NCBI GenBank assembly: GCA_017478205.1
Contig: JAFVDZ010000047.1
Location: 1 to 64,000, forward strand
From: Spirochaetales bacterium
GTDB lineage: Bacteria; Spirochaetota; Spirochaetia; Sphaerochaetales; Sphaerochaetaceae
Direction of reading: 5' to 3'
DNA length: 64,000 nucleotides
Positions 19,426 to 45,947 of the stretch are shown piece by piece. Each line of letters begins with the position of its first letter. The first letter of the stretch is position 1. Position numbers and translations under genes: made by a program. The notes beneath the pieces were generated by a model. The model saw only the letters and a program-made list of their open reading frames with translations. It searched no databases and was not told the origin of the DNA.

Positions 19426-19441
19426 AACAACTACCAAATTT

Positions 19442-19525
19442 GCGGATGTGGTGGAATTGGTAGACACGCTAGCTTGAGGTGCTAGTGGTCGAAAGGCTAT
19501 GCTGGTTCAAGTCCAGTCATCCGCA
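19442..19525 (+). tRNA. tRNA-Leu(GAG), copy 1
   Basis: 84 nt. The acceptor GCGGATG (19442-19448) pairs with CATCCGC (19518-19524) and the discriminator is A. The anticodon stem CTAGC/GCTAG encloses loop TTGAGGT with anticodon GAG at 19476-19478. A long variable arm and TTCAAGTCC T-loop are present, as in class II tRNA-Leu. CCA is not encoded. An identical copy lies inverted at 30607-30690. Confidence 0.95.
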
Positions 19526-30606: not shown

Positions 30607-30690
30607 TGCGGATGACTGGACTTGAACCAGCATAGCCTTTCGACCACTAGCACCTCAAGCTAGCGTGTCTACCAATTCCACCACATCCGC
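30607..30690 (-). tRNA. tRNA-Leu(GAG), copy 2
   Basis: Sequence identical over all 84 nt to copy 1 at 19442-19525; anticodon at 30654-30656 on the minus strand. The 15 nt upstream (ACAACTACCAAATTT) are also identical. CCA is not encoded. Downstream lies foreign-looking sequence, which suggests the 3' end served as an integration site. Confidence 0.95.
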
Positions 30691-30721
30691 AAATTTGGTA
30701 GTTGTTTTAACAACGAGTAAC

Positions 30722-39508: not shown

Positions 39509-39611
39509 TTCTCTTTCTCCCTCTTTAGTATTCTAAATTCTAAACTAAAACGAGGGAGATAGGTTACATTAATTTATTGCAGTTTGGTAAAGATTGTTTA
39601 TAATTAATGTT

Positions 39612-39712
39612 GATGATATAAGCCTCGATATGGGTGGGCGTTTCTACCAGGAGCCACTGTAAATCCTGTTCCTATCATTCAAATTCCTCTATTGGAGGCC
39701 GATATGAATGAT
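39612..39712 (+). promoter_or_regulatory. Guanine-type purine riboswitch with start-codon sequestering alternative stem
   Basis: Aptamer: P1 GATGATA (39612-39618) with TATCATT (39673-39679); J1/2 TAA; P2 GCCT/GGGC with L2 GATATGG; J2/3 GTTTCTAC (39640-39647); P3 CAGGA (39648-39652) with TCCTG (39664-39668); L3 GCCACTGTAAA; J3/1 TTCC (39669-39672), C at the ligand-pairing position, so guanine or hypoxanthine rather than adenine. J3/1 looks 2 nt longer than usual. Expression platform: ATCATTCA (39674-39681), including the P1 3' strand, is exactly complementary to TGAATGAT (39705-39712), which overlaps the ATG, and CCTC can pair with the SD. Ligand binding should free the start: a translational ON switch. 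Confidence 0.85.
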
Positions 39713-40972
39713 TTTGTTGTAAAAGGTGATCTTGCATGGAGTAAGAGCAAGAGTGAGCTTCAGAGTTTGAAGGATGGATACCTGGTAATCGAAAACGGTA
39801 AGATTGTCGGTGTCTTTGATAAACTTGATGAGAAGTATCGCTCATTTGAACTTCTTGATTATTCTGGAAAGTTGATCATTCCAGGATTCTATGATCTTCA
39901 TACACATGCACCACAGAACCACTTCAAGGGTCTTTTCATGGATTATCAACTCCTTGATTGGCTCAACAACTATACATTCCCAGAAGAAAGCCATTTCAAG
40001 AGTGAAGAATTCTATTCAAAAGCGTATGATGATTTCACTTCTGAAATAGCAAAGAGTGCCACAGTCGGTGTTGTCGCTTTCGCAACTATACATAGAGAAG
40101 CGACGCTATACCTCATGAAAGCACTTGAAAAGAGTGGTGTCCTTTCCTATGTCGGAAAGGTCAACATGGATAGAAACTCTCCTGACTACTACATAGAGAC
40201 GACAGAAGAGTCGATAAAGGAGACAGAAAGGTGGCTTGAGGATTGCAAGAAGCTTGATTTAAAACTCTCGAAGCCTATAATTACACCACGCTTCATTCCA
40301 TCTGTAACAGACCATCTAGCAAGAGAGCTTGGAAGATTTGCAAAGGAAGGTGGTTATCCTGTCCAGTCCCATCTGTCTGAGAATATGAGCGAGATTGGAT
40401 GGGTTCAGGAGCTCTGCCCTGAAAGTTCAAGCTATGCTGACGCATATAAGAATAGGGGACTTTGGGGTGAGACTAAGACTATTATGGCACACTGTGTCTG
40501 GTCGAGGATAAAGGAAGATGATCTTCTTAGAAATCCAAATTTATATGTAGCTCACTGTCCTGATTCGAACACAAATCTCTATTCAGGTATAGCTCCTTCA
40601 AAATATTATCTTGACAGTGGGATAAATATAGGCCTCGGTTCAGATGTTGCAGGTGGATCTTCCCTTTCACTTTTCAGAGCGATCACTGATGCTGTCAAAG
40701 CAAGTAAGTTAAGGTATAGAATGTTCGATCAGGATGATGGAATACTTTCTTTCCCAGAAGCTTTCTATATCGCGACAGAAGGAGGTGGCTCCTTCTTTGG
40801 GAATGCAGGCAGTTTCAAAAAAGGATTTGATGCTTCCTTTGTTGTCCTGGAAGAAGAAAATGCTTTGATCGTACCAAGACTCACAATTAGTGAAAGAGTT
40901 GAAAGGTATGCATATATGTCGCCAGAGAAGTCTGTCAGACACAAAATGGTCAAGGGAAAGCTGCTCTATTGA
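39704..40972 (+). CDS. guaD: Guanine deaminase
   Basis: Hydrolyses guanine to xanthine and ammonia; an amidohydrolase-superfamily zinc enzyme. The 422-aa protein shows PGFYDLHTHAPQ with the metal HxH at residues 66 and 68, VNMDRNSPDYY, PVQSHLSEN with a further His, MAHCVW, and GLGSDVAGGSSLS with the catalytic Asp. These match GuaD more closely than cytosine or hydroxyatrazine deaminases. ATG 39704 is used because GGAGG lies five bases before it; TTG 39692 is inside the switch. The guanine riboswitch immediately upstream supports both substrate and function. Confidence 0.92.
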   Translation: MNDFVVKGDLAWSKSKSELQSLKDGYLVIENGKIVGVFDKLDEKYRSFELLDYSGKLIIPGFYDLHTHAPQNHFKGLFMDYQLLDWLNNYTFPEESHFKSEEFYSKAYDDFTSEIAKSATVGVVAFATIHREATLYLMKALEKSGVLSYVGKVNMDRNSPDYYIETTEESIKETERWLEDCKKLDLKLSKPIITPRFIPSVTDHLARELGRFAKEGGYPVQSHLSENMSEIGWVQELCPESSSYADAYKNRGLWGETKTIMAHCVWSRIKEDDLLRNPNLYVAHCPDSNTNLYSGIAPSKYYLDSGINIGLGSDVAGGSSLSLFRAITDAVKASKLRYRMFDQDDGILSFPEAFYIATEGGGSFFGNAGSFKKGFDASFVVLEEENALIVPRLTISERVERYAYMSPEKSVRHKMVKGKLLY

Positions 40973-44281: not shown

Positions 44282-44374
44282 GCTGGATAGCACTCCGGAG
44301 AATCCCATACTGGGTACCGAAGGGGCAAGGGAAGCAAGCGCTTCCTCAATCTCTCAGGTAAAAGGAAGGAGAAG
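44282..44374 (+). promoter_or_regulatory. Glycine riboswitch (single aptamer)
   Basis: The core matches the glycine aptamer: CCGGAGAATCCC, GGTACCGAAGGGGCAAGG, the P3b hairpin GGAAGC-AAGC-GCTTCC (44330-44345), then AATCTCTCAGGTAAAAGGA and GGAG. Only one complete aptamer is present; the hairpin TCCAC-GTT-GTGGA within GAAGGGAC/GTCCTTC (44371-44405) may take the place of the usual partner (ghost) aptamer. CTTCCTC (44341-44347, P3b) is exactly complementary to GAGGAAG (44435-44441) at the SD, so aptamer folding may free the ribosome site. Context (amino-acid symporter) supports glycine. Confidence 0.85.
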
Positions 44375-44444
44375 GGACTTATTTCCACGTTGTGGACATG
44401 TCCTTCTGGAGAAGATGTGATGGATCAGATTCAGGAGGAAGGGC

Positions 44445-45947
44445 ATGGAAGCTCTAATCAATGTAATTGCATTCATCAACTCGAATATCCTTTGGGGTAT
44501 TCCTCTAATTGTTGCCATTATGGGCACTGGCTTGATTCTGAGTATCAGATCAAGGTTCTTGCAGGTCAGGAAATTCAATGAATCCCTGGAAAGCACAATT
44601 GTTCCAACTGTCAAGTCGATTTTCAAATCCGACAAGGACAATGAAGATTTGGAAAAGAGTGAGATTACCCAGTTCCAGGCATTTTCAGCTGCTATCAGTG
44701 GAACAGTAGGTACAGGTAATATCGTTGGCGTTGCTGGTGCTATGCTCGCAGGTGGACCTGGTGCTGTATTCTGGATGTGGGTATCTGCATTCTTTGGTCT
44801 CGTAACCAACTACTCAGAAAATGTCCTTGGTCTCTATTTCAGGAAGAAGGACCAGGCTGGAGATATCTCTGGTGGTCCTATGTACTACATCAGCGAAGGT
44901 CTTGGAATGAAGAGCCTTGCATTCATCTTCTCATTCTGCTGTCTTCTCGCTGCAGTCGGTATGGGTATGGTTCAGGCAAATTCACTCTCTGGAACTGTAC
45001 AGGCCGCTATTTCACAAGATCCTAACCAGAGACTTGCTATTGCACTTTTCATTGGTACAATAGTTTCTGTTATCACAGGTCTTATTGTTCTTGGTGGTAT
45101 CAAGAGAATCGGTGCAGTTGCATCTTTGCTTGTTCCATTCATGGCACTTCTTTTCATGATCTGTACTGTTATCGTCCTGATTGTTAATTACAAGTATATC
45201 CCATTCGCTTTCTCTGAAATTTTCTCCGGAGCATTCTCACTAAAGTCAGTTACAGGTGGTGTCTTTGGTTATGTAATTACAATGGGTATGAGATATGGCT
45301 TTGCTCGTGGTGTATTCTCCAATGAAGCAGGTCTTGGTTCATCTGTAATTGCACACTCTGCATCAAGCACAAAGGAACCTGTTCTTCAGGGGCTTTGGGG
45401 TATATTCGAAGTCTTCTTCGATACATTTGTAATCTGTACACTCACAGCAATCACATTGATAGTTGTAGGTAAGAGCTCAGGTGTTATCGATTTTGCCAAT
45501 ATCGCAGCAAATGGCGCAATTAGCAAGAATGATATTGCATCATTGGCATTCAGCGAGACATTTGGTTCTATCGGTATGATTATCTTCTCTGTCATCATTC
45601 CTCTCTTTGCATTTACGACCATTCTTGCTTGGTCCTTCTATGGTGTTAAGGCTTGTACCTTTATCTTTTCAAAGCATGTAAAGAAAGCATCATTTGTATT
45701 CCTTCTTGTCTACGTCGTAATGCTTTTCCTTGGTGCGATTGCAAAGTCAGATCTTGTCTGGGAGCTTTCTGATATGTTCAATGCTCTCATGGCTCTTCCA
45801 AACCTCTTTGCTCTCGTTCTCCTTTCTGGAACTATTGTCAAGATTAGTGACAACTATTTCAGAAGAAAGGATGGTGAGGATATCGAACCAATGCTATCTG
45901 CATATCCAGAGAGAAATAGAGAGCTTGCAAAGAGCCTGGACAAATAA
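44445..45947 (+). CDS. AGCS-family sodium:alanine/glycine symporter
   Basis: A 500-aa inner-membrane symporter of the alanine or glycine:cation symporter family. Family motifs are ILWGIPLIVAIMGTGLILSIRSRFLQVRKF, AFSAAISGTVGTGNIVGVAGAMLAGGPGAVFWMWVSAFFGLVTNYSE, FRKKDQAGDISGGPMYYISEGL and ARGVFSNEAGLGSSVIAHSAS. About ten membrane helices. ATG 44445 has AGGAGGAAGGG upstream. Control by a glycine riboswitch suggests glycine transport. A terminator-like hairpin follows at 45983. Confidence 0.94.
   Translation: MEALINVIAFINSNILWGIPLIVAIMGTGLILSIRSRFLQVRKFNESLESTIVPTVKSIFKSDKDNEDLEKSEITQFQAFSAAISGTVGTGNIVGVAGAMLAGGPGAVFWMWVSAFFGLVTNYSENVLGLYFRKKDQAGDISGGPMYYISEGLGMKSLAFIFSFCCLLAAVGMGMVQANSLSGTVQAAISQDPNQRLAIALFIGTIVSVITGLIVLGGIKRIGAVASLLVPFMALLFMICTVIVLIVNYKYIPFAFSEIFSGAFSLKSVTGGVFGYVITMGMRYGFARGVFSNEAGLGSSVIAHSASSTKEPVLQGLWGIFEVFFDTFVICTLTAITLIVVGKSSGVIDFANIAANGAISKNDIASLAFSETFGSIGMIIFSVIIPLFAFTTILAWSFYGVKACTFIFSKHVKKASFVFLLVYVVMLFLGAIAKSDLVWELSDMFNALMALPNLFALVLLSGTIVKISDNYFRRKDGEDIEPMLSAYPERNRELAKSLDK

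Follow-up and report, generated by a model that had tools for sequence, protein, structure and literature searches.

The guanine deaminase gene guaD of a Sphaerochaetaceae genome (G000; 1.9 Mb, 98 contigs) is directly preceded by a purine-riboswitch aptamer, and we consider it probable (roughly 0.7) that this is a guanine aptamer acting as a translational ON switch of guaD. The whole 64 000-nucleotide stretch that was analysed is referred to as the window, and the features concerned are listed in Table 1. In the proposed mechanism, the extreme 5' end of the guaD mRNA would be an aptamer that senses guanine and belongs to the purine family of three-way junctions. Without guanine, the 3' strand of helix P1 would be held in an OFF-state hairpin that hides the Shine-Dalgarno sequence (SD) and the start codon. 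Guanine would stabilize the aptamer, so that P1 regains its 3' strand; with P1 formed, the outer helix of the hairpin would be impossible and the ribosome-binding site (RBS) would open. Sequence and comparison provide the aptamer, its retained contact bases, the predicted exclusive pairings, the adjacent guaD and the lack of a terminator; the ON direction and the size of the effect at the window gene we infer.

Table 1. Positions of the guaD leader features in the window.
Feature	Position	Strand	Details
Putative promoter	39577-39604	+	-35 TTGCAG 39577-39582 (weak), 16-nt spacer, -10 TATAAT 39599-39604
P1 5' strand	39612-39618	+	Rfam alignment; P1/P2 covariation
Aptamer core (J1/2 to P3)	39619-39668	+	Alignment; contact bases invariant
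J1/2	U22 = 39619	+	
P2	39622-39626/39634-39639	+	
J2/3	39640-39647	+	Sequence GUUUCUAC; U47 = 39641, U51 = 39645
P3	39648-39652/39664-39668	+	
L3	39653-39663	+	
J3/1	39669-39672	+	UUCC; the canonical AC is 2 nt shorter; specificity base C74 = C39672
P1 3' strand	39673-39679	+	39674-39679 = switch region shared with OFF hairpin
OFF-state hairpin	39674-39712	+	16 pairs in three helices; predicted folding
OFF hairpin, outer helix	39674-39681/39705-39712		8 bp
OFF hairpin, middle helix	39683-39685/39701-39703		3 bp
OFF hairpin, inner helix	39686-39690/39694-39698		5 bp
Shine-Dalgarno GGAGG	39694-39698	+	Read from sequence
guaD, guanine deaminase	39704-40972	+	ATG start, 422 amino acids

The aptamer and its probable ligand

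The Rfam family Purine (RF00167) matches positions 39594-39694 with a score of 34.4 bits and a local-search E of 5e-4. This lies below the gathering score of 37, which relatives with the same gene position exceed. The base just 5' of the P1 3' strand is C39672, corresponding to the guanine-type C74. An aptamer with a guanine-type C upstream of guaD had been claimed in the original prediction, and both observations uphold it; the aptamer is real, but its divergence below the Rfam cut-off had gone unnoticed. In the Rfam alignment P3 is shortened and J3/1 carries a 2-nt insertion (UUCC replaces AC). P3 and L3 together are 2 nt above the usual length, and the CC through which L3 would contact the GG of the L2 loop is retained. 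The guanine-contact bases U22, U47, U51 and C74 are all present in the window; together with U49, C50, A52 and C53 they are invariant in 40 aligned aptamers (window included), over which P1 and P2 covary with 94.6% paired cells and a covariation score of 0.81, against 0.24 when shuffled.

Across the leaders J3/1 reads AC, AGC, UGC, CAGC, CUGC, CCGC or UUCC, the last being confined to the window and G005 among the leaders examined. Because it is UUCC and not of the canonical A73, C74 length, the window aptamer is called a variant of guanine-I. Under the class definitions of PMC9295807, the one-nucleotide J2/3 insertion that marks guanine-II is absent from the window, where J2/3 is canonical in length, and so is the xanthine-II marker U51G (U39645 = U51). 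The aptamer is a divergent member of the guanine-riboswitch scaffold, with guanine as its presumed ligand.

The J3/1 insertion could change or abolish guanine binding. Taken furthest, the window and G005 would form a new sub-class on the guanine scaffold, in which UUCC rebuilds the pocket and alters ligand preference and the ON platform is unlike the P3/L3 platform of the relatives; we regard this as rather unlikely. Also unlikely is a simple change of ligand, with the UUCC junction sensing xanthine, hypoxanthine, 8-oxoguanine or a guanine nucleoside in what would still be an ON switch of guaD. The insertion does lie in the binding pocket and is conserved in G005, and family variants with junction changes sense xanthine or 2'-deoxyguanosine (PMC9295807); however, the four contact bases are retained without U51G, and guanine-II aptamers with junction insertions are still tight guanine binders (PMC9295807). 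Guanine as ligand also agrees with the enzyme, whose substrate is guanine. The top NCBIfam model for the guaD product is TIGR02967 (316.6 bits, below the cut-off of 375.4), its nearest solved structure is PDB entry 2i9u (E 2.8e-107) and its nearest curated family is guanine deaminase rather than 8-oxoguanine deaminase.

Loss of function in the aptamer, leaving the RBS hairpin as a constitutive translational brake, is distinctly unlikely. The score below the Rfam cut-off would fit such decay, as would several guaD orthologues in the genus of the window that have no recognizable aptamer, but the contact bases and the P1, P2 and P3 pairing are intact, the aptamer is conserved in G005, where P2 changes preserve pairing, and the variant J3/1 is identical in the two genomes.

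The window transcript probably starts near 39611-39612, i.e. at P1. The putative promoter went unscored in a stricter promoter scan because its -35 element matches at only three of six positions. In most guaD leaders a TATAAT-like -10 hexamer (5 or 6 matches out of 6) lies 4-11 nt 5' of P1, so the transcripts probably begin with P1.

Two further features of the window were recorded. A single-aptamer glycine riboswitch (44285-44379, + strand, 48.8 bits) lies directly 5' of a sodium:alanine symporter gene (44445-45947). A 100-nt perfect inverted repeat (19426-19525 and 30607-30706, 11 081 nt apart) contains two tRNA genes of equal score and sequence on opposite strands.

Predicted sequestration of the ribosome-binding site

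The segments ATCATTCA (39674-39681) and TGAATGAT (39705-39712) are perfectly complementary over their whole length, as the original prediction had stated with the same coordinates. In the predicted hairpin these segments form the outer helix, and A39704 of the ATG falls in an A-A mismatch. The inner helix buries the SD as well as the start codon being covered; the sequestering stem first proposed was correct in its outer helix and had overlooked this inner one. Since P1 and the stem have the switch region in common, they are mutually exclusive, which had also been claimed.

The hairpin has a minimum energy of -13.3 kcal/mol, and the segment 39672-39721 folds with a z of -3.03 (1 of 200 shuffles was equally good). 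Without ligand, the predicted probability was 0.92-0.97 for the 8-bp helix and about 0 for P1 at all transcript ends tried, robustness being claimed for transcript ends only. The sequestered, P1-less state was favoured by about 4.8 kcal/mol in ligand-free folding. An energy of this order should be payable by a nanomolar ligand at micromolar concentration, and loop-loop contacts would help. Opening the window RBS was calculated to cost 12.8 kcal/mol in the free RNA and 6.3 kcal/mol with P1 formed, the latter being like control starts (6.2 kcal/mol); all of these energies describe secondary structure only, with ligand, loop-loop contacts and kinetics outside them.

Control gene starts were chosen as the null because the SD, spacer and ATG are part of the pairing. 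Compared with 126 such starts, the duplex between the P1 3' strand and the window start had p = 0.016. For the P1 3' strand and the RBS downstream of it, the pairing energy was -6.6 kcal/mol against -1.4 kcal/mol in controls (p = 0.010). The difference in opening cost (free minus P1-formed) was 6.5 kcal/mol against 1.0 ± 1.9 kcal/mol in control starts (p = 0.010, the lowest value attainable with 98 controls). A null using synonymous recoding only gave weaker results for the window, with p = 0.19 for burial of the AUG and p = 0.04 for the free-minus-bound difference. Recoding only the codons after the start gave mostly non-significant results over the family, since the pairing itself involves the SD, spacer and ATG.

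The claim that ligand should activate translation is thus supported computationally, by the easier RBS opening with P1 and by the recurring ON layout described below. An OFF switch, in which the bound aptamer beside the ribosome site blocks translation, is very improbable: repression is the usual mode of canonical guanine switches, and in some g10 relatives a gap of 0-2 nt separates P1 and the SD, near enough for steric effects, but the gap in the window is 14 nt, P1 formation makes RBS opening easier and not harder, clostridial guaD leaders are predicted to be ON, and it would make little metabolic sense for a substrate to repress its degradative enzyme. Transcription termination in the window leader was rejected, as the scan gave no terminator-like site.

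guaD leaders in Sphaerochaetaceae and Clostridia

Aptamers were surveyed in 139 genomes of the same family, mostly metagenome-assembled, whose leaders are mutually related and so not independent. RF00167 matched above its cut-off in 33 of the 139. By this model 30 leaders of the family, that of the window among them, have an aptamer directly 5' of guaD. A possible 31st, in G055, ends at a contig edge but reads into the same guaD N-terminus, and five more guaD leaders (G002, G007, G011, G014 and G069) have divergent aptamers not listed by the RF00167 search; in total the family has about 35 guaD leaders of this kind. The SD mostly lies 0-15 nt 3' of P1, too close for a terminator to fit between them, and regulation is therefore expected at translation. 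The opening-cost difference over 36 leaders averaged 5.0 kcal/mol against 1.7 kcal/mol in controls, with 14 leaders at p <= 0.05. No ON tendency was obtained for G002, G007, G014, G038, G042, G044, G065, G066 and G069, the result being slightly reversed in G014 and G038.

The closest orthologue, in G005 (78% protein identity), keeps the sequestering pairing of the window; taken alone, it gave p = 0.20 in the opening test. Two leaders of the same genus have the window layout with other sequences, namely G004 (CUAUUAUC with GAUGAUGG, p = 0.02) and G011 (CUACCCAUCUU with GAGAUGAGUAG, p = 0.03), and in G033 UACGGCCU pairs with AGGCUGUA (p = 0.02). In a large group of g10 genomes the start region, which reads UAUGGCGGC or UAUGGCAGC, is paired by the P3 5' strand and L3 (GGCUGCCGUA), with p = 0.008-0.024 in ten leaders, which are related and hence not ten independent events. 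The original prediction had named two comparisons of guaD leaders as checks. Of these, covariation was found for P1 and P2, while the window and G005, being identical in the sequestering pairing, provide none for that pairing. The complementary segment is kept in G005, replaced by other sequences within the same layout in G004 and G011, and dispensed with in many other leaders that use the P3 5' strand and L3. A duplex between the P1 3' strand and the start, present in some leaders only, was rejected as a universal rule. Across the leaders compared, the exact complement is lineage-specific, whereas the predicted ON layout recurs.

Several other aptamers were noted. Strong changes in L3 and J3/1 mark five aptamers linked to guaD (L123, L134, L135, L146 and L155), which the RF00167 search did not list and which are possibly further guanine-class variants. 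G006 has a second guanine aptamer (L082, contig C202), canonical at 73.5 bits, with a long open reading frame starting about 540 nt 3' of it. Three aptamers of the family precede guaB and are followed, by eye and unscored, by a T-rich stem as in ordinary repressing switches. In another genus of spirochaetes, g92, a guanine aptamer of canonical appearance (L188, 797-905; also L180, L186 and L189-L192) lies about 40 nt 5' of a gene passing NF006055, the model for 8-oxoguanine deaminase, at 588.7 bits; the ligand of this aptamer may be either guanine or 8-oxoguanine.

Using a model built from the Sphaerochaetaceae aptamers, aptamers were found 5' of guaD at eight clostridial loci, seven of them with a terminator (L018, L023, L059, L060, L061, L074 and L080). 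The terminator engages the P3 5' strand and L3 with its 3' arm in a duplex of about 9-13 bp, so ligand binding would block the terminator and the predicted outcome is transcriptional ON. These clostridial guaD switches are predicted to compete through P3, not P1. As an independent case, they make ON the likely direction at guaD. The comparison suggests that the ON logic has been kept while the wiring gets replaced, with three wirings represented: P1 3' strand against start codon, P3 5' strand/L3 against start codon and, in Clostridia, P3 5' strand/L3 against terminator. The guaD leaders would therefore form a natural series for studying the evolution of expression platforms.

Comparison with known riboswitches

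A literature search, with most subscription papers outside its reach, found no report of a guanine or purine riboswitch controlling guaD. The 8-oxoguanine riboswitch is a variant of the guanine riboswitch that acts as an ON switch of a deaminase. It differs from the window system in organism, in enzyme family and probably in its pocket. That riboswitch is mentioned in PMC9295807. Guanine-II and 2'-dG-III are also predicted to be ON, so the ON direction as such is no novelty among guanine-type switches.

With guanine-I (Bacillus subtilis xpt type, RF00167) the window aptamer shares P1, P2 and P3, the bases U22, U47, U51 and C74, the L2 sequence GAUAUGG and its GG facing the CC of L3; it differs by two extra nucleotides in J3/1 and two in P3/L3. 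Guanine-I is usually a transcriptional OFF switch at synthesis or transport genes, whereas translational ON at a degradative gene is predicted here. The J3/1 insertion, the retained U51 and C74 and the predicted ON direction resemble guanine-II, which, unlike the window, adds a one-nucleotide insertion in J2/3 and mostly precedes phosphoribosyltransferase genes in Paenibacillus (PMC9295807).

The Vibrio vulnificus add adenine riboswitch resembles the window in aptamer scaffold, in translational ON control (predicted here) and in its purine deaminase target. In ligand-free add, part of the P1 3' strand is taken up into a P4 domain, where the SD and AUG are hidden (PMC5847336); by predicted folding, the window P1 3' strand has the same kind of alternative pairing with its SD/AUG region. 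The systems differ in that add senses adenine through U74 in a gammaproteobacterium, whereas the window has C74, a spirochaete host and another sequestering sequence, its outer helix being a direct pairing of the P1 strand with the start and first codons. If the proposed mechanism is correct, the guaD leader would be the guanine counterpart of add, a translational ON switch for the breakdown of guanine, with spirochaetes and not Firmicutes as its hosts.
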